In this document: positions 38,938 through 62,017 of the stretch, piece by piece | Layout of the letters: every line of letters begins with the position of its first letter | Position numbering within the stretch: position 1 is the stretch's first letter | NCBI GenBank assembly: GCA_021654635.1 | Contig: AP025179.1 | Location: 3,782,001 to 3,846,000, forward strand | Source of the DNA: Mycobacterium kiyosense | GTDB taxonomy: Bacteria; Actinomycetota; Actinomycetes; Mycobacteriales; Mycobacteriaceae | DNA length: 64,000 nucleotides | Direction of reading: 5' to 3' | Notes under the pieces: model-generated | The model's database searches: none | Seen by the model: only the letters and a program-made list of their open reading frames with translations | What the model was told of the DNA's origin: nothing | Program-made: the position numbers and the translations under genes

Positions 38938-38985
38938 GTGGTCCCGGCTGGGATCGAACCAGCGACCTTCCGCGTGTGAAGCGGA
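38938..38985 (-). repeat. attL: 48-bp direct repeat, 3' fragment of tRNA-Val(CAC)
   Basis: Base-for-base identical to 61970-62017. On the minus strand it spans from the anticodon stem through the T arm to the acceptor 3' side, plus one base beyond the discriminator. The 5' half of the tRNA is absent here. This is the usual footprint of a tyrosine integrase that uses a tRNA 3' end as attB. Confidence 0.95.
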
Positions 38986-39434
38986 AAGAATACCCACTGG
39001 CCTGCGGATTATCTGCGTCTGTGTGTCGTATGCGCCGCATTGAGCTGCGCTGACGTATCCAGTCCGTCCGGCGAACGGACATAAACCGGACACGGTGCTT
39101 GCACTCCCAACCAGGAGCTTCCGGGTTGCCGCGCGCGTTGTGGGCGGCCTTGGCGGCTCCGGGGAGCAGGCATCCCGATGCCCAGCATCGCGCCATCAGC
39201 CGCCGCACCGACGCCGTCGACGCCCGGCGTGGGATCGGCATCACAACAAGCGTCGTTACGGCACGGTTCTGCCGGTGCCCCGTTTGACGGGAGGTCGCGA
39301 GCGCCCGAGGCCGCCGAGGCCGCAGGGCGCGAGAGCGACAGTGGTCGGCCGGACGCCAACCGGGGCGCCGGCTTCAATTCAACCCGGTCACGACCGGCGG
39401 GCTTGTTATATGTGCCGAAAATGTCCGCGACCCG
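38986..39434. other. Left end of the element, no confident gene
   Basis: 449 bp between attL and the first accepted start of the replication gene. Several overlapping frames are open on both strands, as is normal at this GC, but none has a recognisable domain. The Rep frame itself stays open here (a segment ending NVRDP just before 39435), so Rep may begin upstream. The replication origin could lie here; no clear iterons were found. Confidence 0.5.
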
Positions 39435-40709
39435 TTGCTGGACGGGATCGCGACCGGCGACCTACGGGCGGTCGACGCATTGGGGCTACGGTTCCCGAGC
39501 CCCGAGATGGTCACCGCGGCTGCGGCGCTGTTCGAACCGGCGGCACCGTGGGCTTGTGGTCCCGGGCGTCGCGGCACCGAACCTGAATCCGGACGGTTTC
39601 GCATCACCGTCGGTCCTGGCGTCGTACGACTCGGGTGGACCAATCCTGTCCGGGTCGAGAAAACAGCAGAACGGGCCGTCGGTCATCACCAACGTGACGT
39701 TGACGACGCGAAGCTGCACGTCAGAAATGACGTCGCACTCACAGCTGGGGACCGTGATCAGACCGTCGTGTCTTCGACACGACGGAGCATTTCGGCGGCC
39801 GATTACCGCGGCGCTGGCGCTGTCATCACTGAGTGGTCCCGCAAATCACGGTCGGCGATGTGCCGCACCTTCGCCGAACTCGACTACAGCCCACTCGTCG
39901 AGTGCGGCCGCATCCCGGCCATGATCACGCTTACCTACCCCGGCGACTGGGAGGTCGTCGCCCCGGACGGGGCGAGCGTGAAGCGCCATATGGTATTGTG
40001 GCGCAAACGATTTCAACGAGAGTATGGCGAACCGGCTCGCTACATCTGGAAATTGGAATTTCAGCGGCGCGGCGCACCCCACATTCACCTGTGGATGGCA
40101 CCTCCGATGTCACCCGGTCGCTCTGGGCGTAGCTTCTCCCAGTGGCTGTCCGAAGCGTGGGCTCTGGTCGTTGACCACCCCGACCCGGTTCAGAAAGCTC
40201 GCCATCGGCTCGCCGGAACCGCCATCGACGTGCGCAACGGGCTGAAAGCCTGCGACCCCAAGCGGTTGGCCATCTACTTCACCAAGCATTCATCACCAAA
40301 TCTACACGGCGACAAGGAATACCAGCACATCGTGCCCGAACTGTGGCGGCGTCCCGGACGCGGCCCCGGACGGTTCTGGGGTGTGTACGGACTCAAGAAG
40401 GCCATTGCTGTCGTCGAAGTCGCCCAGGATGCGTACCTGGCTGCTCGGCGGATTGTGCGGCGATGGTCACGCAGCCAGGCGGTGTACGGCGATTCGGCCA
40501 GCAGCTTCCCGACTGCCGTCGTGCCCCGCACAGCCACGCGCCTGGTTCCGCGCGTCGACCGTGAAACCGGCGTCGTGGCGCATCGTAGGGTGCGACGACG
40601 GCAAGCCTTCTGCAACCAAGGCGGCCTCGCCGGCGGATACGCGCTAGTGAATGACGGTCCGGCCTTTGCCTCTAATCTTGCCGCGGCATTGTCGGCGGCC
40701 CGCCCGTGA
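39435..40709 (+). CDS. Rolling-circle (HUH) replication initiator, RepSA-like
   Basis: Up to 424 aa. The HUH motif is RRGAPHIHLWM (H-x-H between hydrophobics). Before it lie MITLTYPGDWEVVAPDG and RYIWKLEFQ, both typical of Streptomyces AICE RepSA proteins. The N-terminal part (RLGWTNPVRVEKTAERAVGH; ITEWSRKSRSAMCRTFAELD) matches that family as well. A candidate catalytic Tyr is in LAIYFTKHSSPNLHGDKEY. TTG 39435 is the first possible start in the open frame, but ATG 39507 is also plausible. In pSAM2-like elements rep is next to xis and int; here it is alone at the attL end. Needed for excised-circle replication. Confidence 0.82.
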   Translation: MLDGIATGDLRAVDALGLRFPSPEMVTAAAALFEPAAPWACGPGRRGTEPESGRFRITVGPGVVRLGWTNPVRVEKTAERAVGHHQRDVDDAKLHVRNDVALTAGDRDQTVVSSTRRSISAADYRGAGAVITEWSRKSRSAMCRTFAELDYSPLVECGRIPAMITLTYPGDWEVVAPDGASVKRHMVLWRKRFQREYGEPARYIWKLEFQRRGAPHIHLWMAPPMSPGRSGRSFSQWLSEAWALVVDHPDPVQKARHRLAGTAIDVRNGLKACDPKRLAIYFTKHSSPNLHGDKEYQHIVPELWRRPGRGPGRFWGVYGLKKAIAVVEVAQDAYLAARRIVRRWSRSQAVYGDSASSFPTAVVPRTATRLVPRVDRETGVVAHRRVRRRQAFCNQGGLAGGYALVNDGPAFASNLAAALSAARP

Positions 40710-40823
40710 GTGAAAGCCTGGCAACCTCAACACTTCCCACGACTTCCACCTTAATTTCTTCGCCCGGCAGATTATTTCGCTTGGCCGTCGCATAAGCCAG
40801 TTCCGCGTCTTACAGTTGCGACC

Positions 40824-41195
40824 ATGGTCACTCCTCCGGTCCTGCTCCGGACATCATCGCGACGCCCACCGGCCTGGCAACGCTGGTTGCTCAACGCGAT
40901 GTACAACTTCGATCGATACACGATCGATGACTGGCTGGGTCTCATGAGAGACCATCTCCAGCGGCCCGGGGGTGCCACCACGATGCAGACCGCTCGTTAC
41001 ACCGTTGATGTCTTGCGCCACGTTAGGGCGCTCACATCGGCCACCGCGAGCCTTGCTTCACACGGCGATCCCGCATCCCGCTCCCAATTGGCCGACGCCG
41101 CTCTGGACCTAAAGAGCGCTCTGGATAGGCTCCATGAAGCACGAGATGAGCTGCTGAAATCCGCTGGGGCCGAACGCGTTACTGATGCTGATTAA
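40824..41195 (+). CDS. Small hypothetical helical protein
   Basis: Up to 123 aa from ATG 40824; ATG 40900 is a shorter alternative (MYNFDRYTIDDWLGLMRD). The C-terminal half is rich in Ala/Leu/Asp helices (QLADAALDLKSALDRLHEA), possibly a coiled coil. No family recognised. It lies between rep and the large nuclease-like gene on the opposite strand and may be a small element-encoded accessory protein. Confidence 0.5.
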   Translation: MVTPPVLLRTSSRRPPAWQRWLLNAMYNFDRYTIDDWLGLMRDHLQRPGGATTMQTARYTVDVLRHVRALTSATASLASHGDPASRSQLADAALDLKSALDRLHEARDELLKSAGAERVTDAD

Positions 41196-41311: not shown

Positions 41312-43340
41312 TCAGCGTGGAGCAGGGATGTTGAGGTTGATCGAGTCGTCCCCATGCTCAAGAGGTGAGTCCATTCTTGCAATGGAGACGAGAGATACCT
41401 GGCCGTTGAGGGTGAATGTCCCACCGCGCCGGTGTTTGCGTCGGAACCGATTCCACTTGGGCCAGACGGACGAGTGCGCCGCCATCACCGCGTCGACACA
41501 CGTCACCCATCCCGGCTGCCTGAGCGCGTTCGCCAATGCGCTGATGACCTCGTCTGGCACACCCGTCGTGGGCTTGTGTGCCGCCAGCCCAGCTTCTTGC
41601 CGGGTGTAAAAGTCGTTAAGCGCCTCGCACGAATATCCGATGAGGATGCGTGTACCGTCCTCGGCCGCCGCGTTGTTCAGGATGCTGAGGCGATCGAGGA
41701 GGTAGGCGCCGAGGGCGTCGGCTTCGGCGGCTGCCGATGCCTCCGCGGAGTGCATGTCTGCCCGCGTTCGCGCGTAGTGATGAAACGCTGCCGGGTCTGT
41801 GAGTATGTCGGCGACCATCAGCATGTCCGTGAGGGATAAGACCCAGGTCGGGTGTTTGACGTCGCCGGCCACTGCCAGCCCGCCAGAAGCAAACGGGTCA
41901 ATGCGCTCGAACGTGACGATGACCGCGGTGCCGCCGGATATGTCGCCCGGAAGCCGCTCGACCGCCCGCCCGTTTTCAGTGGGTGCGAACGACCGGCCGC
42001 TCTCATCGAGGATGTAAGTCAGGGCGCGATCGGTCTGGTCAAGTGCCTTGCCGAGGATCTCCTTGACCTTTGTGTCGACTCGGCCGGGGGGCGCCGCGCC
42101 GACCAGATTCGGTCAGTGCGATCGCCTTCGCCTCGACTACCAGCGGCCACTCGGCGGAGACGAGGGAATCGATCTCTCCCCGGTCTCCGGAAGCGAGTGC
42201 GTAGTGCTGTGTCGAGTGGACGTTCCCAGTCCCGAACACCCTCTCTAACGCGCCGGCGACCAAGCGTTCGTGCGCGTCCTGGCGGTGCTTGTAGTACTTC
42301 TGCGGGTCGAAGCCGTCGCGCTTGGGTTCCACGGCGAGACGCTGGTGGATTGCGTCCGACAGCGACCATGGGTCCGGAACGAAGTATTTCCCGTCGTCGA
42401 GCTTGATGCAGGGATGGGTGCGCGCCCGGTTCTGGTCTCCGGGCTCGCGGAACTCCGGTTGGCAGCCGTACTCCGTTGAGAAGAAGTCCAGCATCGCGGT
42501 GATCTGCTCCACGGCAATGCCGGTGCTGGCCGCTACTTCGTTGGGGTCCCACAGCGTTATCCCGTCGAATGCCTTCCGCATCGCTTCCCCGACCGCGGGG
42601 TTTCGCGCGCCGCTGTTCAGTGCGGCGGTCACTGCGTCGAGCGCCGACCTGAACGCCTGGTTCTCCGATCGGATGTGCCGCCGAGTAGCCCGAATCACGT
42701 CCGCGGGGTCGAAGCCGAGTCCGGTTATGTAGTAGTCGCGATGTCGTCCGAATACCTCGGCGTCGATCTGTTCGAGATGTACCGCGTAGCCGGGCATCCT
42801 GTCTGCCTGGTACTCCAACCTCAGCTGCTGCAGTAGAAGTTCACGGTCTCCGTCGTCGGCGTCGGCGTTCGCGAGGGACGCGGTGATCATGCGTGCTTGG
42901 TCGGCATCGAAGATGTCGCTGATCAGTTGCCCCACACGTTGCGTTACCTCGTGCGGGGTGTCCGCGTCGCCGGCGGGATCCACGGACAGTGCGACACCCA
43001 CCAGGTACTCAACCTTGGCCGCCCACGTCGATGTGGCATCCCCGTCGGCGAGGCTCTCCGCACCGGTAAAGGCGACCATCATGGCCGGTACTACCACCGA
43101 GTTGACGAGCTGGGTGAGGTCCCGACCAGCCATCAGGTCGCGGAGCTCGTCGATTAGCGCGGTCAGGGCATCAGCCTGTGCCCGGAGCGCTTCCAGCATC
43201 TCGTTGATGACCGCGTCACGTTCGGGTCCCGGCGGCAGCGACGTCCGCGCTACTCCGAAGCCAGAAGTACTCGTCGTGGATTCGTACAAGGCGTCGGGAT
43301 CGAACGGTCGATTCTGCGGGAATCCACCAAGCCTGGCCAC
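41312..43340 (-). pseudogene. Large NERD-type nuclease-domain protein, one frameshift
   Basis: Two frames meet at a run of six G (plus strand) at 42086-42091. The first, from ATG 43340, codes 400 residues of unknown helical sequence (DLTQLVNSVVVPAMMVAFTG) and then a restriction-like fold core, RGEIDSLVSAEWPLVVEAKA. The D and E-x-K of this core are those of PD-(D/E)xK/NERD nucleases. With one base fewer in the run, the second frame continues directly (GRVDTKVKEILGKALDQTDR) to the end at 41312, total about 675 aa. The C-terminal part has DSPLEHGDDSINLNIPAPR. No close named family recognised. Location between rep and an Abi gene suggests an antiphage nuclease. Confidence 0.65.
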
Positions 43341-43610: not shown

Positions 43611-44276
43611 ATGACTGCCTGCGTGGCGGTGCCGTACGGGCCTTGGGTCGAGAACTGGTTGAGCTCCGAGCGGTTCGCAACGTACTTGAGAATGGCCGGC
43701 CACCACAGGCCACGCGCCCTGGCGCTGTACGAATGGAGCACCAGCCTGAACGCTGCCCTGCTCCACGATTTCGCCCACTTGGAGGTCGGACTGCGAAACA
43801 TGTACGACGCCGCGCTGATGGGGGCGGTCGCGGCCGGCGACAGCCACTGGCTCGACAGCGCTTCGGCAGCTCAGCTATTCCCGAGGAATGTAGCGGGGAA
43901 CGCGCGAACACATCAGGACATCGCCATCGCACGTGATAATGCTGGCGGGACCGGAGCGCCGGCAGGCAAGGTGATCGCCGAGCTAATGTTCGGGTTTTGG
44001 GTCTTCCTGACCGCACGTCGGCACGAACCTCTCGTCTGGCTACCGCACCTGGCACACGCTTACCCCAGCGGAACTCGCCGCGCGCAACTACACAACGGCT
44101 TGAGCGACCTGTTGAAGGCTCGCAATCGGGTAGCGCACCACGAGCCGGCGACTGTGCGTTCCGGGCGCGAGATCGTCCGCCGAATTCGCGGTCACGCCAG
44201 ATATGTCTCGCCGGAGCTCGCTCGGCACATCGATGCGACAAGCACCGTCGAACAAATCATCCGGAACCGGCCGTAG
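43611..44276 (+). CDS. Abi-family (HEPN) abortive-infection protein
   Basis: A 221-aa Abi_2-like protein. The N-terminal region has SSERFATYLRMAG, RALALYEWSTSLNAALL and HLEVGLRNMYDAAL. The C-terminal HEPN signature is LLKARNRVAHHEP (R-x4-H, here R-N-R-V-A-H), preceded by LMFGFWVFLTARRHEPLVW. HEPN proteins of this kind act as RNA nucleases that stop growth upon phage infection. The start at ATG 43611 follows a stretch with three hairpins that may be an RNA antitoxin. No protein antitoxin gene is adjacent, which favours RNA control. Confidence 0.85.
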   Translation: MTACVAVPYGPWVENWLSSERFATYLRMAGHHRPRALALYEWSTSLNAALLHDFAHLEVGLRNMYDAALMGAVAAGDSHWLDSASAAQLFPRNVAGNARTHQDIAIARDNAGGTGAPAGKVIAELMFGFWVFLTARRHEPLVWLPHLAHAYPSGTRRAQLHNGLSDLLKARNRVAHHEPATVRSGREIVRRIRGHARYVSPELARHIDATSTVEQIIRNRP

Positions 44277-44438: not shown

Positions 44439-45186
44439 ATGGCGGACCGTTCGGCGATCGAGTGGACCGAGGCCACCTGGAACCCCGTCACCGGCTGCGA
44501 TCGCATCTCCGACGGATGCGACCACTGCTACGCGATGACACTGGCCAAGCGGCTCAAGGCGATGGGCTCGGCGAAGTATCAGGTGGACGGAAACCCGCGC
44601 ACCTCGGGCCCCGGCTTCGGGCTGACGGTACATCCGCAAGCGCTCGACGAGCCGCGGCGGTGGCGCAACTCCCGGGTGGTGTTCGTGAACTCGATGTCCG
44701 ACCTCTTCCACGCCCGGGTGCCGATTGAATTCGTTCGCGACGTGTTCGACGTCTGTCGCGACACTCCACAGCACACCTACCAGGTGCTGACCAAGCGCAG
44801 CCTGCGCCTGCGCCGCGTAGCCGACAAGCTCGATTGGCCGGAGAACCTCTGGATGGGCGTGTCTGTGGAGAACGCTGACGCTCTGCCCCGCATCGACCAC
44901 CTCCGCGAGGTGCCGGCCGCGGTGCGGTTCCTATCCTGCGAGCCGCTGATCGGACCGCTCGACGGCATCGATCTCACCGGCATTGGATGGGTAATCGCCG
45001 GTGGCGAATCCGGTCCTCGGTACCGGCCGATCCAGCTGTCGTGGGCACGGGGGGATCCGGGACGCCTGCACCGAGGCCGAGGTGCCGTTCTTCTTCAAGC
45101 AGTGGGGCGGCCGCACCCCGAAAGCGGCGGGACGTGAACTTGACGGTCAGCTGTGGGACGAGATGCCCGAGGCCGCTACGGGTTAG
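44439..45186 (+). pseudogene. DUF5131 (phage Gp37/Gp68-like) three-Cys-motif protein, one frameshift
   Basis: The first part (from ATG 44439, SD AGGAGG) reads SAIEWTEATWNPVTGCDRIS, DGCDHCYAMTLAKRLKAMG, with the Cys-x6-Cys-x2-Cys arrangement that gives the family its three-Cys name and suggests a radical-SAM-like Fe-S site. It continues through VLTKRSLRL and [14 protein letters not shown]. At GGGGGG 45049-45054 the frame is lost; removing one G gives [20 protein letters not shown] and the normal end DEMPEAATG at 45186, 248 aa. The gene converges with its family partner TcmP (11-bp overlap). Function unproven; likely intact in the cell. Confidence 0.82.
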
Positions 45187-46462
45187 GAGCCGTCGTCTTG
45201 CGGATAACGTGCTGGTGCGGCTTCGACACCTTGGTCACGTGTTCGATCTCGCCCGACTTCACCAGAGCGCGAACCGCCGCCGTGTACGCCGTCTCCTTGG
45301 CCTCACCGTAGAGGTCTCCGTACACCTCCTTCACGTGCCGGACCACCTCCTTCGGTTGCCCGTCGGCAGTCACCCGCCGCAAGTTTTCGGTGATGTGCGC
45401 AATCGCTTGAGTGTGTTCCCTCTCAAACTGATCTGCCACGGCGTCCCACAGTGTTCCCTGCGGTTCATCGGGGTCCGGCCCCAAGAACTCAATCCATCTC
45501 TGTCGCGCCTTTGCGCCGGCGGCTCCGAAGACCCAGAACCCGTGTGGGTCCTGGGTGAGGAATATCAAGTAATAGACGGGCTGGTGATGGACCTGGCGCC
45601 GTACCGGTGCGACGACGTATCCGTACCCGGTTCCGTCGATCAGATGCTTGGCGTACTCGATCGCGACGTTCTCCGCGGCTGACTCCCAATCGCGCCCGCC
45701 AGATGCCTCATGCGACCTCAGCGCCACACCTCGCCACCACTCACCGCCGCACACGGCGTCTGCCTTCGCGACACCGCCGAGGTCGAGTTGGCCCTTCTTC
45801 AACTGACCGCCTGCTCGCCGGATCAGGTCGGCGTTGAAGTTCAACAACAACTCGGTCCGCGGCCACTTGCCCCGTGTACGGAGGATGTCCCTAATGGAAC
45901 TCATCGGGAGCACGGCTCCGCAAGGATCAAGGAAGACGAACAGACTGGCTCCGGCGGCCAACTGCAACGCCTCGTCAATGTAATCCCCGCATTCGCCGTG
46001 GTGGCTGTCGATGCGGATACCTCGGGCGCGGTACTCGTCGGCCACCGCGTCGAGGGACTCGTAGTCCTCACGGTTTTTCTCAATCAGGAGAAGGTCGATC
46101 TGGGTGGTGTTCCTGGCCTTCTGCGCGGCGAGCATCATGTGCTCAGCGGATCCTGCTTCACCGGTGTCGAAGCGACCTCGGCCGGCGAACCCGTCGAAGA
46201 GCACCGCTCGCTTCGGCTTGAGCTTGCTCGCTGTCATCGTCGCGAATCTGACGACGTACTGCTCGAGGATCGCGTGCTTGTAGACCGATTGCGGCCTGGG
46301 GCTTTCCAGCAACCCTGCGTCTGTACCGGTGGGCATCGGCTTTGCATCCCGGCCGATCAGCGCCGCATCGACCAAGCCATCGACCCCGATGATCGAGTCG
46401 ATGCGGTCAACATGCGAAGTCTCCCAATCTTCTTCATGCGTCCAATCGAGCAGCTCTCGCAC
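45176..46462 (-). CDS. tcmP: Three-Cys-motif partner protein TcmP
   Basis: A protein of up to 428 aa. The core shows [30 protein letters not shown] (methyltransferase-like motif I), [32 protein letters not shown] and [17 protein letters not shown], the layout of the TcmP family, which is found beside DUF5131 three-Cys proteins. A C-terminal winged-helix-like region follows ([16 protein letters not shown]). GTG 46462 is the longest start; ATG 46333 (MPTGTDAG) and a frame-shifted upstream extension with acidic sequence (46357-46581) are alternatives. The Rossmann fold with DPxG may bind SAM or nucleotide. Putative two-gene defence or modification unit. Confidence 0.8.
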
Positions 46463-46611
46463 ATCTCATCGGTGCCCATCGCTTCATCCATCATTTGATC
46501 CACATCCATCACGTCCGCCTCGAACGCTCCAACATCCACTGCCATGGTCGGCCCTGGCGACCCCCAGGCCAATGATTGCATTTGTCATATCACTATGCAA
46601 ATATAACATAC

Positions 46612-48444
46612 ATGACGGATCCACAGTCCATTCCGGCGCTCCTCCAGGCCATCCGTGCTGCACTCGACCTCACGCAGGCCGAGTTGGCCGAGCGGCTCGG
46701 TGTCTCCTTCGCCACGGTGAACAGGTGGGAAGCCGGTTCCAGCAAGCCACAGAGAGCCCAGCTCGCCAAGATCAACGCTCTGGCCGAGGATGCTGACGTC
46801 GACGCCAGCGATTCCCCACTCGCCGGTGGAGCGATAGTCACCCGTCGCCGTGGCCGCCAAGCTAAGCCAGCGACTCCGACCACAAAGCCAATGGAGCAGA
46901 TGCTGTGGGACGCCGCTTGCTCGATCCGAGGCGAGAAGGACGCGCCGAAATTCAAGGACTACCTGCTGCCGCTGCTATTCCTTAAGCGCCTTTCCGATGT
47001 CTTTGACGACGAGATCGACCGACTCGCCGAGGAGTACGGCGACCGTGACGTCGCCCTGGAGATCGCGGACAACGACCACGACCTGCTCCGCTTCTATCTC
47101 CCGCCCGAGGCGCGTTGGGCCGTCATTAGCGGACGCGCGCAGTACGACTGGCCTGACGACGAGCGCGGTCGGTCTACACGACCACGCGACATCGGTGAGC
47201 ACCTCACCAAGGCAGTGCGAGCCGTCGTCCGATTCAACCCGAGTCTCGCCGGAGTCATCGACGTCGTGGACTTCGCGGCTGAGCGCAACGGTGAGCGGGA
47301 TATCAACCCCGCCAAACTCAATGGCGTCGTCGAGACCTTTTCCGACCCGCGTTATCGCCTAGGCCTCGCCGACGTGCAGCCCGACTTCCTTGGCCGCGCA
47401 TACGAATATCTCCTCCGGAAGTTCGCAGAGGGCTCGGGCCAGAGTGCGGGCGAGTTCTTTACTCCAACCGAGGTCGGATTCCTCATAGCGCGCATCCTGA
47501 GGCCGAAGCCAGGACAGACCTGCCATGACTACGCTTGCGGTTCCGCCGGCCTGCTCATCAAGCTCCAGCTCATCGCGCGCGAGCTCGACCTGACCGCCAA
47601 GATCCCACTCAAACTGTTTGGCCAGGAGCTACAGGCCGAGAGTTACGCCGTCGCCCGGATGAACGCAATCATCCACGACATGGACGTCGACTTACGCCGC
47701 GGCGACACCATGATCAATCCCAAGTTCCGGACATCGTCGGGATCGCTCGACCAATTCGATCTTGTCGTCGCAAACCCGATGTGGAACCAGCCTTTTGACC
47801 CGAGCATTTTCGAGGACGACCCGTACGACCGTTTCATCAAACACGGTGGCGCAACGTCAGGCAAGGGTGACTGGGCCTGGCTCCAGCAGACGCTCTCGGT
47901 GCTCAAGGACACCGGCCGTGCGGCGGTCGTCCTCGACACCGGTGCCGTAACGCGCGGCTCGGGCTCGAAGAACGAAGACAAGGAACGCAACATCCGCAAG
48001 TGGTTCGTCGACCGCGATCTCGTCGAGGGCGTCATCCTGTTGCCCGACAACCTCTTCTACAACACGACGGCCGCTGGCGTCATCGTGGTGCTCAACAAGC
48101 GCAAGCCCGAGTCTAAGAAGGGCACGATCACCCTGCTCAACGCGAGCAAGCGGTTCACCAAGGGCAAACCCAAGAACCACCTCGCCGACGAGGACGTCTT
48201 GGATCTCGCGAGGCTCTACAACGCAGGCGATCCTGCCGAGGGGGAAGTTGCGGTCATCGACCTCACCCAGATCGCCGACGCCGATTACAACCTCAGCCCT
48301 AGCCGGTGGGTTTCCGCTGTCGCCACCGATGAGACAGGCGACCTCGGTGATTTGCTGACGGAGTTCGAGCAGTGCATGAGCGCAGAAGCGGATCTCGAGG
48401 GCAAACTCCATGGAGCACTCGCGAGTTTGAGGAAGCTGGCATGA
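46612..48444 (+). CDS. hsdM: Type I restriction-modification methyltransferase with N-terminal HTH
   Basis: A 610-aa HsdM. Unusually, residues 1-65 are an XRE-type HTH ([32 protein letters not shown]), followed by a linker. The N-terminal bundle starts at [20 protein letters not shown]. The SAM motif is [15 protein letters not shown] and the catalytic N6-adenine motif is [12 protein letters not shown] (NPPY-type, about residue 388). ATG 46612 is preferred because it begins the HTH; the frame is open from 46576. The AT-rich promoter just upstream holds ATTTG-N13-CAAAT, a possible operator for the HTH. The stop overlaps hsdS by 4 bp. Confidence 0.93.
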
Positions 48445-53040: not shown

Positions 53041-53901
53041 ATGCGAAGAACGCCAAAAAGAGTCTTCGTCGTCCACGGTCGTAACTTGGGTGCGCGAGAC
53101 GCGATGTTTGACTTTCTCCGGGCCATAGGTCTTGAGCCGATCGAATGGTCGACCGCGATCAGCGCAACAGGATCGGCGAGCCCCTACATTGGCCAGGCGC
53201 TCGATGCCGCGTTCGAGATGGCGCAAGCCGTCGTCGTTCTCCTAACGCCTGACGACATTGCGTACCTACGACCGGAGTATGCCAACGGCGAGGATGACCC
53301 CGAAAGGACTCCGACTCCGCAAGCCAGGCCAAACGTGCTGTTCGAAGCAGGCATGGCGATCGGGCGTCACCCCGAGCGAACCGTTCTTGTGGAGCTCGGC
53401 TCGTTGCGCGCGTTTAGTGATGTTGCGGGCCGGCACGCCGTAAGGCTGGACAATTCGTCGCAGAAGCGCAACGACCTCGCGAACCGCCTCAAAGACTCTG
53501 GCTGCGACGTGTCGACTGCGGGGGCAGACTGGCTGCGCACGGGCGACTTTACGTCACCCAATGCGCCCGACATGCCGATGGGACGCCGGGTCCCCAGCGC
53601 ATCGGGACGCCCTCGCAATCGTTTGGATGCCCAGTATCTTCGGCGCGGCTCCGGCTCTGACGTTGTTCAACTCATAAATCGAAGCGGTCAAGACCTTTTC
53701 GACCTGCATTCGCCTAACGTCAAGGATTTCAACGCGGCGCTCAGGGGTTTCCCGGTCTCGCGATTGCCCGCATCAAAATCCGTGAGCTTGCGAGCGCTTT
53801 TATCGTCGAGTTCACCGGACAGGTTCGACTTGCTGGTCACGGGCCGAACCGAGGAGAACGAGGAATTCACCGAAACACTTTTCCTGGACCTCAATGGGTA
53901 G
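53041..53901 (+). CDS. TIR-like nucleotide-binding domain protein
   Basis: A 286-aa protein. Residues 5-150 form a TIR-like domain of the CAP12/PycTIR group: RVFVVHGRNLGARDAMFDFL, PIEWSTAISATGSASPYIG, AQAVVVLLTPDDIAYL and the catalytic Glu in NVLFEAGMAIGRHPERTV. Such domains hydrolyse NAD+ during abortive infection. Residues 190-286 are a second, beta-rich domain (SDVVQLINRSGQDLF, FDLLVTGRTEENEEF) that I do not recognise and that may be the sensor. It starts 5 bp after the metallopeptidase gene and precedes the zinc-ribbon gene, so it is in the same operon as the restriction genes. Confidence 0.85.
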   Translation: MRRTPKRVFVVHGRNLGARDAMFDFLRAIGLEPIEWSTAISATGSASPYIGQALDAAFEMAQAVVVLLTPDDIAYLRPEYANGEDDPERTPTPQARPNVLFEAGMAIGRHPERTVLVELGSLRAFSDVAGRHAVRLDNSSQKRNDLANRLKDSGCDVSTAGADWLRTGDFTSPNAPDMPMGRRVPSASGRPRNRLDAQYLRRGSGSDVVQLINRSGQDLFDLHSPNVKDFNAALRGFPVSRLPASKSVSLRALLSSSSPDRFDLLVTGRTEENEEFTETLFLDLNG

Positions 53902-53907
53902 GCGTTG

Positions 53908-54354
53908 ATGGACATACCGATTTCGTTTCCCCTCGACGACGATGGTTTCCTACGTCGCGAGTGTCCAAGTTGCGGTGACGAGTTCAAGTGGCATCACGGG
54001 CCCATGGCCAGCCGACCTGCTACCGCGATTGATCCCGCGGAGTACACGTGCCCGCTTTGCGGGATGACTACGCCAAACGATCAGTGGTTCACCCAAGAGC
54101 AGGTCAAACATCAACGCGAGACGGTTGAGTTCTACGCGGTGGACGTGGTTAATGACGAGCTGAAACGTGCATTCGGAAAGAACTACACACCTGGTAAGAA
54201 CACGGCGCCACCGCCGACACCGCTTCACGAACCGAACGACATGGTCATCATTGAGCCTCCCTGCCATCCATGGGAGCCCGTGAAAGTTGACGAAGTCCGC
54301 GCGGACACCGGCCCGCTGTACTGCCTCTTCTGCGGTGAGACCTACCGCGCATGA
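53908..54354 (+). CDS. Zinc-ribbon protein of unknown function
   Basis: A 148-aa protein with three CxxC pairs: RRECPSCGDEFKWHHG, YTCPLCGMTT and GPLYCLFCGETYRA, all likely zinc-binding. The middle part QVKHQRETVEFYAVDVVNDE is helical. ATG 53908 is used; it follows the TIR gene stop by 6 bp. No named family recognised. Tight linkage to the TIR gene suggests that the two work together. Confidence 0.75.
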   Translation: MDIPISFPLDDDGFLRRECPSCGDEFKWHHGPMASRPATAIDPAEYTCPLCGMTTPNDQWFTQEQVKHQRETVEFYAVDVVNDELKRAFGKNYTPGKNTAPPPTPLHEPNDMVIIEPPCHPWEPVKVDEVRADTGPLYCLFCGETYRA

Positions 54355-54368: not shown

Positions 54369-54791
54369 CTACACGAGGTTGACCCCGTCATGCACTCGTG
54401 ACTGGGGAGCTTCCTCGAAAGCGTCCAACACACGCACACTGAACGCTGGTGCCATCACAGACTGCACTTCTTGCTTTGTCATCCAACGGATTTCACGAGC
54501 TTCCTCGGTTGTGTGCGGCTCACCCTCGGTGGGCCGACAGCGATACACCAGCGCAACGATTCCGTGGGCCAAATTCTTATAGACACCGGTGATGCGCTCA
54601 ACAGTCACAGCAAGTCCGGTCTCTTCCAGTACCTCGCGCTGTACGCCGGCCTCGAACGATTCGTTGAGTTCCAAGACTCCCCCGGGCGCCTCCCAGTGCC
54701 CGTTGTCATCGCGTTTGATGACCAAGACGCGGTCGTCGTCGCGGACCACGATGCCAGCTACGCTGACAGAGTGCTTCGGTGTGGCTGCCAT
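54369..54791 (-). CDS. NUDIX hydrolase, Pif-like
   Basis: A 140-aa NUDIX protein. The NUDIX box is intact: GGVLELNESFEAGVQREVLE followed by ETGL (G-x5-E-x7-REVxEExG). The N-terminal strand is VSVAGIVVRDDDRVLVIKRD. It is divergent from the KorSA-like gene with a shared 92-bp promoter region that contains the KorSA-type operator. In pSAM2, a NUDIX protein (Pif) gives immunity against redundant conjugative transfer and is located in the same neighbourhood, so an immunity role is a fair inference. Confidence 0.85.
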   Translation of the reverse strand: MAATPKHSVSVAGIVVRDDDRVLVIKRDDNGHWEAPGGVLELNESFEAGVQREVLEETGLAVTVERITGVYKNLAHGIVALVYRCRPTEGEPHTTEEAREIRWMTKQEVQSVMAPAFSVRVLDAFEEAPQSRVHDGVNLV

Positions 54792-54883: not shown

Positions 54884-55663
54884 GTGCTACAACTTGGCCA
54901 GATCGATCGGGCGGACGATAAGCCGCCGTATCGACAGATCGCCACCATGCTGCGCGAAGCCATCATCTCTGGCCAGCTAGAAGCTGGTGGACGTCTGCCC
55001 TCCGAGGCCGCGTTGATCGATCATTTCGGGGTCGCCCGGATGACAGTCCGCCAGGCAGTGCAGCAACTGCGTTCCGAGGGATTGGTGATCTCCGAGCACG
55101 GTAGGGGCGTCTTCGTGCGGCCCGCTCCCCCAATTCGGCGACTTGCATCCGATCGCTTCGCGCGGCAACATCGCGCCGGCGGTAAGGCCGCATTCACCGT
55201 CGAGGCCGAAAAGTCGGGCTACATGCCACAGGTCGACAACATCACTGTGACACGCGAGAAGCCGAATCCCACTGTCGCCGAACGTCTTCGGTTGACCCCA
55301 GACAACGATGTTGTCATCCGATCACGGCGATACCTCGCCGACGGACGCCCCGTCGAAACCGCGATCTCATACATTCCCGCCGCCTTCGCCGAGGGCACCA
55401 AGATCGAACAGACCGACACCGGCCCTGGCGGCATTTACGCACGGCTCGAAGAAGCCGGCCACACGCTCGCTCGATTCACCGAGGAAGTCGGCGCACGGAT
55501 GCCCACCCCCGAAGAACGCCGCGCCTTGCAACTTCCGGCGGGGGCGCCCGTCCTGACGGTGGTTCGGACGGCCTACGACACTAATGACGTGGCAGTCGAG
55601 GTGTGCGACACGGTGAAGGCGGCGTCGGCCTACCTGCTGGAATACGACTTCTCAGCGCGCTGA
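54884..55663 (+). CDS. GntR/HutC-family repressor, KorSA-like
   Basis: A 259-aa regulator. The GntR winged helix covers residues 10-75 (PPYRQIATMLREAIISGQLE; GRLPSEAALIDHFGVARMTV; GLVISEHGRGVFVRP). The UTRA ligand domain follows (RLRLTPDNDVVIRSRRYLAD, GARMPTPEERRALQLPAGAP, DTVKAASAYLLEYDF). The start is GTG 54884 with a GGGAAGG SD. In AICEs the KorSA repressor keeps the element integrated by repressing pra and tra genes; matching operators before this gene and before the pra-like gene support the same circuit here. Confidence 0.88.
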   Translation: MLQLGQIDRADDKPPYRQIATMLREAIISGQLEAGGRLPSEAALIDHFGVARMTVRQAVQQLRSEGLVISEHGRGVFVRPAPPIRRLASDRFARQHRAGGKAAFTVEAEKSGYMPQVDNITVTREKPNPTVAERLRLTPDNDVVIRSRRYLADGRPVETAISYIPAAFAEGTKIEQTDTGPGGIYARLEEAGHTLARFTEEVGARMPTPEERRALQLPAGAPVLTVVRTAYDTNDVAVEVCDTVKAASAYLLEYDFSAR

Positions 55664-55763: not shown

Positions 55764-56186
55764 ATGTCCATTCCCAAATGGCTCCAGATCGGCCACGAGC
55801 AAGTCTTCTCCCTCGGCGCGTTCCTCGTATCCGAGGTGACGCCGATGATCGACTTCGACAAGTCCTCAGGCGAGAACCGCGTGCAGGCGAGGGACCGTGA
55901 CACTGGTTTGCCGATGTGGCAGGTCGAAGTGCTTGACGGTGATCCCGCCGCACCGAAGCGGAGTCGAACGGTGACGGTCAAGTTCGCCGCACCAACGCAG
56001 CCGTCTGCGCCCACCAATTCCAGCGGAACGCCGTTCACTCCAGTGGTTTTCGAAGGCCTGATGGCTTTGCCGTATATCGAGCGGTCGGGCGATTTCTCTC
56101 GGATCGCGTGGTCGTTCCGCGCCTCTGGTATGACGGCACCAGGCAAGCCTTCCGCTGCGTCGAACTCGGGTCGGGTGTCGGCATGA
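55764..56186 (+). CDS. Pra-like activator of replication, integration and excision
   Basis: A 140-aa protein. Segments QVFSLGAFLVSEVTPMIDFD, DRDTGLPMWQVEVLDGDP and FTPVVFEGLMALPYIE match my memory of Streptomyces AICE proteins annotated as plasmid replication, integration and excision activator. In pSAM2, Pra switches on rep, xis and int and is repressed by KorSA. The operator-like repeat directly upstream and the 4-bp overlap with the translocase gene fit that system. Confidence 0.8.
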   Translation: MSIPKWLQIGHEQVFSLGAFLVSEVTPMIDFDKSSGENRVQARDRDTGLPMWQVEVLDGDPAAPKRSRTVTVKFAAPTQPSAPTNSSGTPFTPVVFEGLMALPYIERSGDFSRIAWSFRASGMTAPGKPSAASNSGRVSA

Positions 56187-57505
56187 ATCCTGATCCGTTC
56201 GCGCCGGTCGATCCCGACACCCCGCTGCGGTTCGACCACGTGCTGGACTTCCTCACCAGCTTCGTCTTGTACGCCGCGGTCATCGTGGGCGTCATTGCCG
56301 CCGCTCTCGTTTACTGGCGCCTGCACTCGCCGGAAACCTACGAGGAACGGTTCGCGACACCTGCCCGGCTCATGCGCTGGCGCCTCTGGGCACACGTCTC
56401 GTGGCAAAAGCTGTGCAAGCGCTGCGGCTTGTCGACCTCTGAGCAGGTCATGCGCCGCGACAAAGAAGGACGACAGGTCTCGTCGACGCGTTGGTTTCAT
56501 CCAAAGCTGTTGGGAACAGACGTGTCCCAAACCAGCCTTCGTCTGACGGTGCGCACCAGGATGGGCCAGACCGTCGAAGACTTAGAGCGTGCCGTCCCAG
56601 CGATCCGCGACGCTGCGGGCGCACACTCCGCGCGGTCGGTCGTCGTGTCTCCCGGGACGCTTCGGATCGAGCTGGTCATGCGAGAACAGCTGTCGACGGT
56701 AGGTCACGCGGCACCGCCGACAGCGGTAGCAACGGCGCGAGTCACGCTCGGGCGATGCGAAAACGGGTCCCCGTGGACCCTGCCAGTTAGCGGGCGACAC
56801 ACCCTCACCGTGGGCTGCTCAGGTGCAGGCAAAGGCTCCATCTTCTGGGGCATCGCATGTGGCCTCGGTCCTGCTGTCGCCGCCGGTGTGGTTCGCCTGG
56901 TGGGAATCGACCTGAAATACGGCATCGAATTATCGGTCGGCTCTGATCTGTTCACGAAGACCACCACCACGGAAACCGATGCCGTGGAAACCCTTGCCGC
57001 GCTGGAGAAGTTGATGGACCAGCGCGGGCAACGTATGGCCGGACACTCACGCCAGCACAGCGCGACTCGTGATACGCCGTTGGTGTTGCTCCTGATCGAC
57101 GAACTCGCCGGTCTGACCAACTACTTGTCCGATCCGGCCATGTGCAAAGCGGCCAAAGCATCGTTGTCGCGGATCTTGTCCAAAGGCCGCGGCCTGGGGA
57201 TCGTGGTGGCCGCATTCGTACAAGACCCTCGTAAGGAAATCATCCCCATGCGGGAATTGTTCACCCAGACCATCGCGCTGCGGCTGCGTTCACGCGACGA
57301 AGTCGCGATGGTGCTCGGCGACGGCATGGTCGACAAAGCGCCCGCGCACCGAATCAGCCCCAACCAACCCGGTACCGGCTACGTCGTCGCCGAAGACGGA
57401 CAGGTGACCAAGGTGCGATCCGACTTTTGGAGCGATGACCAAATCCGCGCCACTGCAAAGCGATACGGCCGAGCACGCACACCCGGAGGCAAGCGCGATG
57501 AGTGA
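56183..57505 (+). CDS. FtsK/SpoIIIE-type DNA translocase, TraSA-like
   Basis: A 440-aa conjugative double-stranded DNA pump. A membrane segment is at about residues 24-45 (FVLYAAVIVGVIAAALVYW). Walker A is GCSGAGKGS near 211-219; Walker B is LVLLLIDELAG near 302; the later motif FVQDPRKEIIPMRELF is typical. AICEs need only this one protein to move DNA between mycelial or cell partners. ATG 56183 overlaps the pra-like stop (ATGA); the open frame begins earlier but lies inside that gene. Confidence 0.92.
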   Translation: MNPDPFAPVDPDTPLRFDHVLDFLTSFVLYAAVIVGVIAAALVYWRLHSPETYEERFATPARLMRWRLWAHVSWQKLCKRCGLSTSEQVMRRDKEGRQVSSTRWFHPKLLGTDVSQTSLRLTVRTRMGQTVEDLERAVPAIRDAAGAHSARSVVVSPGTLRIELVMREQLSTVGHAAPPTAVATARVTLGRCENGSPWTLPVSGRHTLTVGCSGAGKGSIFWGIACGLGPAVAAGVVRLVGIDLKYGIELSVGSDLFTKTTTTETDAVETLAALEKLMDQRGQRMAGHSRQHSATRDTPLVLLLIDELAGLTNYLSDPAMCKAAKASLSRILSKGRGLGIVVAAFVQDPRKEIIPMRELFTQTIALRLRSRDEVAMVLGDGMVDKAPAHRISPNQPGTGYVVAEDGQVTKVRSDFWSDDQIRATAKRYGRARTPGGKRDE

Positions 57506-57818
57506 CGACTGGGCTATCTTCAAACTGCCCAGCCAAGATCAAGTGGCGCGGCATGCAAGAGATTTGATCCACCGTGCCGACCTCGTCCGCAGAGACGGAT
57601 GGGACCAATACCGGCACATCTGGTCGTGCGGCGAAATCATCGGCACCGCTCTGATCTTGGGTGACCATGCCGAACTCCAGCGATACAGCGAGACAACGGA
57701 TTCCGCATTAGAGCGGTGGGCATATGACCTGTGGGGTATCGCCGGCGGTCAATCCGACGTCGATGCCGGATTACAGCGCACGCGCGCCTGGTTCGACTCG
57801 ATCCGTGCAACGAGGTGA
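57498..57818 (+). CDS. Small hypothetical AICE protein
   Basis: A 106-aa protein from ATG 57498, which overlaps the translocase stop by 8 bp. It has MSDDWAIFKLPSQDQVARHA, WDQYRHIWSCGEIIGTALIL and ERWAYDLWGIAGGQSDVDAG, suggesting a helical soluble protein. Similar small genes lie between tra and xis in other actinomycete elements, but I know no function. Confidence 0.7.
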   Translation: MSDDWAIFKLPSQDQVARHARDLIHRADLVRRDGWDQYRHIWSCGEIIGTALILGDHAELQRYSETTDSALERWAYDLWGIAGGQSDVDAGLQRTRAWFDSIRATR

Positions 57819-57822
57819 AGCG

Positions 57823-58059
57823 ATGGTCACTCACGGCCTCCGGGAGGCTCTCGTCGCCGCAGGCAACTTCCCTGAGCTGCTAACCGCAGAGCAGGTCTCA
57901 GCCTTGCTCGGCGTCTCGGCCGCGACGCTCAACCGTTGGGCAGCGCTCCGCGAAACGACCGGCGAGCAGATCGGCCCGCCCTGCTACACCCTGTCGGAGC
58001 GGGTGCGCCGCTGGGACTGCGCCGAAGTAAGGTCCTGGCTCAAGCAGGTGCGCCGGTAA
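57823..58059 (+). CDS. Excisionase-like HTH protein (Xis)
   Basis: A 78-aa protein with a MerR/AlpA-type winged helix: ELLTAEQVSALLGVSAATLN followed by RWAALRETTGEQIGPPCYTL and VRSWLKQVRR. Size, sequence and place (stop TAA overlaps the integrase ATG by one base) are those of AICE excisionases, which direct the integrase to excise the element. Confidence 0.85.
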   Translation: MVTHGLREALVAAGNFPELLTAEQVSALLGVSAATLNRWAALRETTGEQIGPPCYTLSERVRRWDCAEVRSWLKQVRR

Positions 58060-59187
58060 TGGCCGGCAACAATCCACGCGGTATCCGGAAGCGACTCAAC
58101 GGCGCCGGGGAGCCTCGCTACCAAGTGCGCTACCAAGTCCGCGATCCGCTGACACCGTCCGGCTGGGTCGAGACGTCAGCCACATTCCCGACCCTGCGGG
58201 AGGCAAAGGCGTTCAAATCGGAACGCGACAACGAGGCGGCGCTCGGTGCACGTCGGTTCGATCCACGCCTCGGACGCACACCGCTGAGCCGGATTTGGAC
58301 GCAGTTCTCCGATTCCAAAAAGCCCGCGGTGTCGCCGAAGACATGGAGCGGCTACTCCCAGCACTGGGAACTCCGTATCGGACCCCGGTTCGGTCATATG
58401 CCCGTCGACGAAATCACCCGCACAGACGTCCAGGCGTTCGTTGACGGCTTGACCGTCGGCCCCTGGGCGAAAGTTTCCACGCTGCGACTGCTGCGTTCGA
58501 TCCTTGACGTCGCCCACCAGGACGGCCGAATCCACCGCAACCCCGCCATTGGCGTCGCAGCGGGTCGCATTCCCGAGCGGGAACGTCACCGATACCTCAG
58601 CGCACCGGAGGTCCAGACACTCGCCACCGCCTGCGGGGACCAGGGCGATGTCGTGACCATCCTGGCCTACACCGGCCTGCGCTGGTCCGAACTCGTCGGC
58701 CTCCGCGTCAAAGACATCGACTTGACCGCCCGCCGCCTCTACGTCCGGCGGGCCGCACCTGAAGTCGAAGGCCGCATCGTCATCGGTCCGCCAAAGACCC
58801 GAGCCGGCATCCGAACCGTCCCGCTCCCCCAAGCCGTCGTCGACATCTTCCAGGGGCGCATCACCGGTCGGAACCCCGAAGAACCTGCCGTCACATCTCC
58901 CAATGGCGCGATGTTGCGGTCCAACAACTGGCGCCGGCACACGCACTGGAACAAAGTCCTAAAGAAAACCAACCTCGCCCCATTGACGATTCACGACTTA
59001 CGCCACACCTACGCCAGCCTGGCCCGGAAATCAGGTGCCGACTGGCTATGACAGTTTGATTCAGGACCGGTGTGACGGCCTGATTCAGGACCACCTTCTT
59101 TCAGACCGGTGTGTTGTGACGGTTTGATTCAGGACCACCCTCGACGGTTGGCGTGTCGATTATTGGCTCGCTGTCGGAGGGTTCCGG

Positions 59188-61011
59188 ATGGGAAGTCGTG
59201 TGGAGCTGTTCGCCCAGATACGTAGGGACGCCCGGGTCGAGGGTTTGGGTATTCGGGCGCTTGCTCGTAAGTACAAGGTTGGCCGGGATACGGTCCGGCA
59301 CGCGTTGGCGAATCCGGAGCCGCCGAGGCGGAAGACACCGGTGCGGGAGTCGCCGAAACTGGGCCCGCTCAAACCTGCGATTGATGCGATGCTGCGGACC
59401 GATCTGGATGCGCCCCGCAAGCAACGCCACACTGCGACAAGGATTTGCAATCGTCTGGCCGATGAACACGGCGTTGAGGATGTGTCGTATTCGTCGGTGC
59501 GTGACTATGTCCGGGTCCGTCGTGCGGAGATCATCGCCGAGTCCGGTAAGCAGGCGCAGGAAGCGTTCGTGCCGCAGGAACACCCGCCCGGCGCTGAAGC
59601 TGAGGTTGATTTCGGCGAGGTTCACGTCATCCTCGCTGGTGTCAGAACCCGCTGCTACATGTTCGTTTTTCGAATGTCGATGTCCGGCAAGGCAGTCCAT
59701 CGGGTGTATGCGACTCAGTCCAGCGGAGTTCCTCGAAGGCCACATCGAAGCATTCGACGTGATCGGCGGCATCCCGGTGCGCCATATCCGCTACGACAAC
59801 TTGAAGTCTGCGGTCACCTCGGTGGTGTTCGGCCGCGGTCGGGGCAGGGTCGAGAACGACCGGTGGGTGCTGTTCAGATCGTTCTACGGGTTCGACCCGT
59901 TCTACTGCCAGCCGGGAGTGAAAGGCGCCCACGAGAAAGGCGGAGTCGAGGGCGAGATCGGACGTTTCCGCCGCACCTGGCTCACGCCCATGCCGGAAGT
60001 GGACTCGCTGTCAGAGCTCAACGACTACATCCGCCGCTGCGAAGCACGTGAGGATCATCGGCGGGTCACCGGCCGGCTGCACACCGTGGGCCAGGACTTC
60101 CAGACCGAACGAGAACATCTCGCCGCTCTGCCTGCCGAGCGGTTCGACCCGGGCTGGTGCTGCATCCACGGTGGACCGGTCGGCGCTGATCAGCGCGGTC
60201 GGCGAAGTACTCGGTTCCCGCCCGGTTGATCGGACGCAAAGTCAGGGTGTCGCTGCGGGCCTCGGAGTTGGTCGTCTTCGACGGCCGCACTATCGCCGCA
60301 CGCCATGAACGCGTCACGACCCGCAACGGGCAATCGATCAACCTCGACCACTATCTGGAGGTGTTGCACTGCAAACCCGGCGCGTTGCCCGGCTCCACCG
60401 CGCTTGCTCAGGCCCGCGCCGCCGGCACTTTCACCGCAGCGCACGAGGCGTTCTGGCAGCAGGCCCGCCGCGTCGACGGCGATGCTGGCGGGACTCGCTC
60501 GCTAATCGACGTGCTGCTGCTGCACCGCAGCATGCGCGCTACCGATGTGATCGCCGGGATCCACGCCGCCCTGTCGGTCGGTGCCGTTTCAGCGGATGTG
60601 GTCGCGGTCGAAGCACGCCTGCATGCCGCCGGTGGTGGTCTCGAATCAGACCGTCACGCCGGTAACCATGCCAATACCGTCGATTACCGGGTCGTCAGTC
60701 TGACCCAGCGCCGCCTGGCTGATCCAGCGACCGTGATCGCCGGCCTGCCACCCGACACCCGGCCGCTGCCTGACGTCGCGGCCTACGACGAGCTGCTCCA
60801 ACGCAGACCCCAACAACACCGCCACCCGGTGACGGAATGGAAGGAACGACTGGATCATGAGCACGGCCACGAAAGTCACCAACACCCTGCGCCGCCAACG
60901 CGGGATGACCCCACAAGCGGCCCAAGCCGCCGTCGATTCCGCATGCCGACGCCTGCGGTTGCCGACCGTGCGTGCGGTGATCGACGAAGCAGTGAAAGTC
61001 GCCGAGCGTGA
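59188..61011 (+). pseudogene. istA: IstA transposase (IS21 family), frameshifted
   Basis: Starts at ATG 59188 with the HTH VELFAQIRRDARVEGLGIRA. The DDE-type integrase core follows (EHPPGAEAEVDFGEVHVILA; VYATQSS). The frame shifts near 59715 into EFLEGHIEAFDVIGGIPVRH, KGAHEKGGVEGEIGRFRRTW, and shifts back between 60165 and 60215 to YSVPARLIGRKVRVSLRAS. The last frame now runs past the istB start to 61011; a natural end near 60860 is likely. Several indels mean the transposase as read is not functional, though some may be sequence errors. Confidence 0.85.
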
Positions 61012-61648
61012 ACAGCTCACCTACCACGGCTTCCTCGCCGAACTGCTCCTGGCCGAATGCGATGACCGGGACCGCCGATCCACCTTGCGGCGAGTCGCAG
61101 CGGCCGGGTTTCCACGTCAGAAATGGTTGGGCGACTTCGATTTCGACGCCAACCCAAACATCAACGCCGCCACCGTACATACCGTCGCCCAAGGCGATTG
61201 GATACGCCGAGGCGACCCGCTCTGCCTGATCGGCGACTCGGGCACCGGCAAGTCCCACCTGCTCATTGGTGTGGGCACCGCCGCCGCCGAGCAAGGCTTC
61301 CGCGTCCGCTACACACTGGCGACCAAACTGGTCAACGAACTCGTCGAGGCCGCCGATGAAAAGCAACTCGCCCGCACGATCGCCCGCTACGGCCGCGTCG
61401 ATCTTTTATGTATCGACGAACTCGGCTACATGGAACTCGACCGCCGGGGCGCAGGTTGCTGTTCCAAGTACTCACTGAACGCGAGGAAAGGCGTCAGTAG
61501 CCATCGCATCCAACGAGAGTTTCTCCGGCTGGACCAAAACCTTCACCGACCCCCGACTCTGCGCCGCGATCGTCGACCGACTCACCTTCCACGGCACCAT
61601 CATCGAAACCGGCACCACCTCATACCGGCTCAGCCATACCCGCGGTAG
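60857..61648 (+). pseudogene. istB: IstB ATPase helper (IS21 family), frameshifted
   Basis: ATG 60857 opens a DnaA/DnaC-like AAA+ protein: FPRQKWLGDFDFDANPNINA, Walker A LIGDSGTGKSHLLIG, Walker B LLCIDELGYMELDRRGA. After about 61447 the frame is lost; in other frames the family continues LLFQVLTEREER and SVAIASNESFSGWTKTFTDP, ending after ETGTTSYRLSHTRG. At least two indels are needed to restore it. It assists IstA in target DNA capture. Confidence 0.87.
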
Positions 61649-61969
61649 CAGCTCGCGATCACAGCCTACGAAGACGCCTGAGCCACCACCTCCTCGCCGA
61701 GGTGGTCCCGAATCAAGCCGTCACAGTGGTCCTGAGTCAGGTTGACATAGAGAGCCGACCTTCGCTACGTGCAGAAGACCATGGGCCACTCAACGCCGAC
61801 CGTCACCGCCAACATCTATAGCGACCTCTACGCCGACGAGCTGGACCAGGTCGCAACCAACCTCGATCAGCTACATGCGACTGAGATTCAAACACTCAAG
61901 ACCGGACAAGAACCGGACGAGTCAAACCAACCACCGAGTGCATAACCCGTGTCAATGCAGGTAGACGTA

Positions 61970-62017
61970 GTGGTCCCGGCTGGGATCGAACCAGCGACCT
62001 TCCGCGTGTGAAGCGGA
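61970..62017 (-). repeat. attR: 48-bp direct repeat inside tRNA-Val(CAC)
   Basis: Identical to 38938-38985. It forms the 3' part of the intact tRNA gene at 61971-62042. The integrase gene ends 25 bp away, the normal arrangement for a tRNA-targeting element. Confidence 0.95.

Follow-up and report, generated by a model that had tools for sequence, protein, structure and literature searches.

The window analysed here is a 64,000-nucleotide stretch of Mycobacterium kiyosense DNA (contig AP025179.1, positions 3782001-3846000 of a 6.35-Mb single-contig genome), and between positions 38938 and 62017 it holds an integrated element of the type termed actinomycete integrative and conjugative elements (AICEs), which has a defence-rich cargo and is not part of the core genome. 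The element is bounded by two copies of the 48-bp 3' tail of tRNA-Val(CAC) (38938..38985 on the left and 61970..62017 on the right), which are 100% identical; the insertion site is an intact tRNA-Val(CAC) gene, called on the minus strand at 61970..62042 with its 3' end pointing toward the element, and the right copy makes up the 3' part of this gene. Perfect 48-bp repeats, the right one in an intact tRNA gene, had already been reported in a preliminary description of this DNA made from the sequence alone, and both the repeats and the tRNA call are borne out, so that one of the features by which AICEs were recognised, insertion into the 3' end of a tRNA gene between direct repeats, is present. 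Within each copy a pattern search located inverted arms around a 7-nt loop (38967-38985 and 61999-62017). Inside the repeats lie the left attachment arm (38986..39105, defined by arm alignment) and the right attachment arm (61946..61969), with a motif like GTGTCNATGCAGGT whose pattern match starts at 61949. The guanine-plus-cytosine content of the element is 62.2%, against 68.6% in the left flank and 66.9% in the right. The window genome has a single 16S gene, which is consistent with a slow grower.

The backbone genes follow the order rep, small open reading frame (ORF), cargo, NUDIX, GntR-UTRA, Pra, FtsK-type Tra, small ORF, xis and int, the backbone genes all being on the plus strand apart from the NUDIX gene. 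A 424-aa ORF, rep (39435..40709), encodes a rolling-circle-type initiator by its Pfam match (PF23343), and the small conserved ORF adjoining it (40824..41195) is 68-90% identical in the related loci L030, L035 and L043. On the far side of the cargo are a NUDIX protein that is Pif-like by its Pfam domain (54369..54791, minus strand), a GntR-UTRA regulator that is KorSA-like by its Pfam domain (54884..55663), and Pra (55764..56186), named from database neighbours, one of which (P0009, 94% identical) is annotated ‘plasmid replication, integration and excision activator’. The roles of these three are as set out for pSAM2 in PMC3218068; here all three are present, recognised from domains and database names alone. 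They are followed by one FtsK/TraB-type translocase with an FtsK_SpoIIIE domain (56108..57505; PF01580, 3.2e-8), the single FtsK/SpoIIIE-type Tra looked for in an AICE, by a small ORF which in the locus comparison recurs in many relatives (57498..57818), and by xis (57823..58059), a small helix-turn-helix (HTH) protein recognised from its position and an HTH_17 match of 25.0 bits, below the Pfam cut-off of 27. The nearest named Tra relatives in the database comparison belong to Mycobacterium and allied species. Plasmid-borne relatives were considered and rejected, the 18 plasmid records matched by Tra being all below 60% identity. Three related elements, L032, L033 and L041, match rep, NUDIX, GntR, Pra, Tra, the second small ORF, xis and int with the order kept, while other relatives are without a match to one or more backbone genes (for example L034 and L044 to NUDIX, L045 to Pra). 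Excision as a circle would join the two parts of the backbone into an unbroken run, from int through the attachment site to rep.

The last backbone gene, int, is split. Its N-terminal piece of 328 residues (58059..59042, plus strand), assigned by PF00589 and locus comparison, runs into an IS21-family insertion sequence (IS) at 59043..61753 (plus strand; IstB_IS21, with ends set by the flanks of sister copies), within which the int ORF ends, and the gene resumes at 61754. The C-terminal piece (61754..61945, plus strand) is 71-98% identical to the ends of relatives' integrases and contains what we take to be the catalytic tyrosine, and a 6-bp target duplication (59037-59042 and 61754-61759) brackets the IS. 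The genome holds 11 copies of this IS, the window's included, at 99-100% identity, and the duplication is present in all five copies inspected; the istA ORFs gave no Pfam match. Because the IS splits it, int, a tyrosine integrase gene by its PF00589 match, is of doubtful function, and the element is probably grounded, unable to excise by itself unless another integrase acts in trans; the closest other integrase of the genome is only 35% identical. Unsplit copies of int are present in relatives. The IS within int illustrates one way in which a defence island, once it has arrived, can become fixed in the chromosome. Of the AICE gene set listed in the preliminary description, the rep-like gene (PF23343), NUDIX, GntR-UTRA, Pra, FtsK_SpoIIIE and tyrosine integrase genes all stand, as does xis by place and HTH, and an intact int does not; that description also missed the broken reading frames and the unusual choice of tRNA discussed below.

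The same description had proposed a comparison with strains lacking the element at tRNA-Val(CAC), and relatives lacking it there exist. At the tRNA-Val(CAC) loci of nine relatives (L180-L186, L188, L189), chosen among good matches to the locus, there is a single tail copy in every case and none of the genes of the window's element was found; sequence of the window's left flank lies 0.3-5.5 kb from the tRNA in eight of them, and in the remaining one, L186, no left-flank match was found near this tRNA. The site is not empty everywhere, yet: in G013, a genome of the same set of relatives, it is occupied by a member of the element's own family.

The tRNA gene used by the window's element is a rare one for its integrase. 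A survey of 396 genomes of the genus (E<=1e-120) found 58 integrase places in 56 genomes, the window's included, of which 51 are at tRNA-Phe(GAA) (three of these typed from core sequence alone), four at tRNA-Val(CAC) and one (G202) at neither, and two truncated places are without a type; 50 places, with the window's among them, were typed in the main examination and six more (G024, G067, G045, G131, G091 and G271, which stand outside the trees) in separate ones, the two truncated ones being left out. The four Val users are the window, G013 (integrase 89% identical to the window's), G350 (76%; on a contig of 4.4 Mb, with tail copies 18.9 kb apart and identical at 47 of 48 positions) and G044 (65%; a short contig and the most distant Val-site integrase). 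Loci fetched by Tra, some of which represent the same genome twice, give the same picture, 24 of 25 being at tRNA-Phe(GAA) in a Phe-Asp-Glu-Lys cluster and the other, L029, ending before int, and the integrase relatives in viral_contigs, kept out of these counts, are at tRNA-Phe in five of five loci. The idea that this integrase is common to other genera was rejected, all seven matching genomes among 298 of the order (76 genera sampled, E<=1e-80) belonging to the window's genus. Also rejected was the idea that Val served as a second site because another element already sat at tRNA-Phe: in the window genome that tRNA is intact, 17 kb around it (L062) contain neither a second tail copy nor any of the element's genes, and no second close integrase was found in the genome.

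Some further traces of the family lie beside the sites surveyed. In G363 and G031, which are two other species, a remnant resembling the right arm adjoins tRNA-Val(CAC) with no integrase match (L153:16303-16328 and L184:18729-18750), and these are likely footprints of lost Val-site elements. G044, whose Val-site integrase is at L172, also has a right-arm motif on a different contig, and certain Phe-site elements have exactly the same motif. Two right-arm motifs are 21.5 kb apart in G229 (L177/L178) and 1.6 kb apart in G119 (L176); in both genomes a Phe-type core, at which no tRNA was called, comes after the int examined, and the elements are possibly tandem or nested.

Compared with its relatives, the window's element has an integrase, an xis and two arms that resemble by sequence those of Phe-site elements, and what appears to be Val-type is the 48-bp core only. 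The 120-bp left arm is 88% identical to that of the Phe element L032, 85% to L033, 86% to L041, 83% to L045, 83% to L030 and 84% to L034, and it is 75% identical both to the Phe element L043 and to the Val element L174, whose own left arm is nearest to L043 (81%). The arms therefore do not group by tRNA and largely go with the integrase, and the right-arm motif is likewise common to the family. The tails of tRNA-Phe and tRNA-Val have common anticodon-stem arms, TCCGC/GCGGA, and differ at four of the seven loop bases. Among the 45 tRNAs of the genome, the tail of tRNA-Val(CAC) is the best match to that of tRNA-Phe (37 ungapped, the next best being 33), and the stem is present elsewhere only in Val(CAC) and Pro(TGG).

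How many times the family moved to Val was considered with integrase trees, from which the partial integrases L169, L170, L171 and L173 were left out; L147, in which a stop is written X, carried the label ‘none’ in the first tree and was dropped from the approximately unbiased (AU) analysis, which was also run without L021 and L025, their rows being identical to L151 and L124. The AU test rejected a single clade of all four Val users (p 0.0018) and one of window, G013 and G350 (p 0.022). Because these larger Val clades are rejected and a clade of window and G013 is not, the tree suggests at least two independent switches to Val, and not surely four.

We read these data as an AICE of a Mycobacterium family with an exchangeable defence block, whose integrase is of the Phe lineage and which entered a near-cognate Val site, captured its core and later received an IS in int, and we give this reading a probability of roughly 0.64. 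The steps of the switch would be as follows. The integrase would bind the anticodon-stem inverted repeat common to tRNA-Phe and tRNA-Val, with the choice of partner set by the match of the 7-nt loop and tail, and on rare occasions it would integrate into the closest look-alike tRNA; as the best match to the tRNA-Phe tail, tRNA-Val(CAC) is the expected target of near-cognate integration. The product of a crossover between a Phe-type element and tRNA-Val would be a hybrid tRNA, whereas the tail is Val-type throughout at either end; hence either a repair or capture step after the crossover is to be supposed, or a core derived from a different Val element. Capture of the Val tail, with selection to keep tRNA-Val working, may then have yielded an attachment site addressed to Val. 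The IS21-family copy would have entered int afterwards, fixing the element in place so that its defence genes stay in the host. A broader proposal, which we make tentatively and at slightly less than even odds, is that the attachment core is an exchangeable address: this integrase lineage would read only the anticodon-stem arms, and repeated moves between Phe(GAA) and Val(CAC) would come about by core replacement alone, with the integrase unchanged.

A number of observations weigh against this reading. All 48 bp of the core are Val-type in both copies, for which a single mispaired crossover is insufficient, and tRNA-Pro(TGG) has the same stem, yet no Pro-site place was seen in the survey. The arms do not strictly track the integrase, L045 having an arm 83% like the window's and an integrase only 78% identical. 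Regarding the trees, the AU test does not reject window and G013 as a Val clade (p 0.79), and its groups were defined by site and tested after the tree had been seen; in the quick integrase tree just two of 40 inner branches are starred and G044 has a long branch, and the Val label requires four changes, as many as labels shuffled at random need (mean 3.9). The Val element of G350, complete at both ends, matches the window only in int, xis and gntR, and no match to rep, pra or Tra was found in it. The window's Rep is not of either named AICE type tested, RepAM (PF12307) or Prim-pol (PF09250): PF23343 was matched, and neither of those two models was among the matches. Lastly, the IS-split int may exist in only part of the sequenced population.

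Other routes to a Val core next to Phe-type arms have to be considered. The core may have been swapped by recombination between co-resident tRNA-Val and tRNA-Phe elements, as the Val-site users in other lineages (G350 and G044) and the likely footprints in G363 and G031 would allow; such a swap is nevertheless unlikely, as with only the 48-bp core Val-like it needs two crossovers very close to the core, and by left-arm identity the window's element is as far from the Val element L174 (75%) as from the least similar of the Phe elements. It is more improbable still that the integrase protein itself altered its specificity and the core followed. Nine positions of the window's integrase are unlike all 41 Phe users, but the same control gives ten such positions for the Phe user L156 and seven for five others, none of the nine is held in common with another Val user, and no residue was found that sets the window's integrase together with another Val user apart from all 41 Phe users. 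That the Val location is an artefact of assembly is hardly credible: indels hint at a poorly polished stretch and otherwise nothing was found in its favour, while the arms of the element stand next to a Val core at both ends, the flanks are syntenic with relatives, and on the 4.4-Mb contig of G350 both tail copies of a Val-site element are present. The preliminary description had itself said that its proposal would be undone if the two repeats proved to be an assembly join, and this was rejected, Val sites being present also in G013, G350 and G044.

A different sort of objection, that the locus is a decayed genomic island in which little works, arises from its broken frames and split int. The frame of the cargo gene for DUF5131 leaves that of its relatives after about residue 205, hsdR parts from the frame of the M. 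asiaticum copy toward its end, and upstream of rep there is an in-frame stop near 39285, where relatives' ORFs change frame (the near Rep database records are mostly about 500 aa long, with some of 422-454 aa, the window ORF being 424). The istA and istB frames of the window IS differ from those of sister copies, and of the 51 mechanical ORFs compared in a chromosomal control region (20-38.9 kb) just one, matching at 60%, showed a frame change. Against decay, the frames of FtsK, Pra, GntR, NUDIX, xis, HsdM and HsdS are open, and the pattern of changes in the IS looks more like a local assembly error. Singleton columns among five of the 11 IS copies number eight gaps and six substitutions in the window's copy, five gaps and two substitutions in the copy 14 kb to the right (L063), and zero or one gap with no substitutions in the other three. 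Because indels outnumber substitutions in the window's copy, which is unlike neutral decay, local assembly error is the likely cause of the broken frames, and a decayed island is, in our view, rather doubtful.

Returning to near-cognate integration followed by core capture, target switching among tRNAs is known in principle, and an AICE-type element with defence cargo is likewise of a known kind. Related AICE integrases are found at different tRNAs in Frankia (tRNA-Lys/Met; PMC3218068) and related integrases at different tRNA genes among archaeal pT26-2 relatives (PMC8371274), the latter paper adding that secondary sites could contribute to specificity switches; the 7-bp anticodon loop and stem fit the overlap-and-core plan of tyrosine recombinase sites given there. 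What these cases have in common with the present one is closely related integrases at different tRNA genes, and what differs is that here the arms, the core, the 45 tRNAs of the host and an integrase tree are comparable, and that the tRNA targeted is the one most like the usual target. No description of Phe/Val switching in mycobacterial AICEs was found in the literature searched (open papers only). How integrases change their target tRNA is an old question, and this family offers matched natural cases, with near-identical integrase, xis and arms and a different core, in hosts whose tRNA set allows possible targets to be ranked. A new site would also free the element from competition for tRNA-Phe.

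Like known AICEs, the element has a tyrosine integrase, xis, rep, FtsK-type Tra, Pra, GntR and NUDIX genes and tRNA 3'-end integration with direct repeats; it differs in a large defence block, in an int interrupted by an IS, in the position of rep on the other side of the attachment site from int, and possibly in the type of its Rep, which matches PF23343. The preliminary description spoke of AICEs as described mainly in Streptomyces and relatives, and rarity in mycobacteria is not supported: Mycobacterium AICEs were already listed by Ghinet et al. 2011 (PMC3218068), and the integrase itself is present in 56 of 396 genus genomes. Among those listed, Mkan24688 has a tyrosine integrase and the others serine recombinases, eight being in a tRNA-Leu gene; the likeness to the window's element is thus one of genus, extending to a tyrosine integrase in Mkan24688 only. 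Closer relatives are the Phe-site elements of M. asiaticum (L021), M. simiae (L024) and M. gastri (L026), which have the same backbone and an N-terminal integrase piece 88-89% identical and differ in a tRNA-Phe core, an unsplit int and other cargo.

The cargo begins with two minus-strand ORFs, one without a family in Pfam or PADLOC (41312..41872), possibly the end of the gene that follows, and the other (42039..43340) described in the preliminary account as a NERD protein, for which no Pfam, NCBIfam or PADLOC family was found. The supposed Abi/HEPN protein (43611..44276, plus strand) is likewise not confirmed, matching only PADLOC PD-T4-5 weakly (1.3e-6, with no stretch passing alone). Next are DUF5131 (44439..45137, plus strand; Pfam and PADLOC PDC-M41B/M30B) and the TcmP three-Cys-motif partner (45176..46462, minus strand; TIGR04474, 3.6e-41), and then, on the plus strand throughout, a type I restriction-modification (RM) set of hsdM with an N-terminal HTH (46576..48444; Pfam, PADLOC), hsdS (48372..49685; Pfam, PADLOC) and hsdR, its main part at 49682..52318 (Pfam) and a C-terminal piece in a different frame at 52230..52631 (Pfam and comparison with relatives). 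A YgjP-like metallopeptidase (52631..53035; Pfam), which we take to be the earlier DUF45 protein, is followed by a TIR protein (53041..53901; PF10137, CAP12/Pycsar-type, and PADLOC PDC-S35) and by the protein called a zinc ribbon (53905..54354), without a Pfam match and matching the PADLOC candidate PDC-M14A. Most of the proposed cargo (DUF5131, TcmP, HsdM/S/R, YgjP and TIR) is in this way confirmed, and the larger proposal of a mobile defence island on an AICE-type element is supported, with known and candidate defence families clustered on a mobile element and relatives lacking the element at the site. From their families, the cargo genes would be expected to act in defence.

The block between rep and NUDIX-GntR-pra-tra-xis-int appears, from comparison of relatives, to be exchangeable, and the backbone rather stable. 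PADLOC scans, made on three sets of 9, 10 and 10 chosen ORFs and not on all ORFs, found families in the same slot of five of the seven relatives' elements sampled: type IIG RM in L032; type I RM with a capP-like protein in L033; candidate PDC-S19 with IIG/II methyltransferase-type genes in L041; PD-Lambda-3_B in L034 (one ORF tried), which by locus comparison also has DUF5131-TcmP; and IetA-IetS with a ShosA-like protein in L174. None was found in the chosen ORFs of L043 (four tried) and L045 (one tried). M. asiaticum L021 has hsdM, hsdR and YgjP in common with the window, and M. simiae L024 has DUF5131 and TcmP. PMC11706625 lists the same AICE gene set and reports that some nuclease genes are neighbours both of AICE genes and of defence systems.

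Other integrated DNA may be present in the same genome. The last 23 bp of the neighbouring tRNA-Val(GAC) (62471-62493) recur about 9.8 kb rightward, next to another tyrosine integrase (29% identical; L063:6917-8252, equal to G000:C1:3852917-3854252), and probably a second integrative element, starting at tRNA-Val(GAC), lies directly beside that of the window. About 3 kb past the tRNA-Val(GAC) repeat, at L063:11587-14288, the IS21-family element found in int occurs again, there too flanked by a 6-bp target duplication. More distant FtsK/Tra homologues, 30-40% identical, are found at G000:C1 1674683, 1928484, 2675789, 4146315 and 4705543, and these are perhaps other AICE-type elements.

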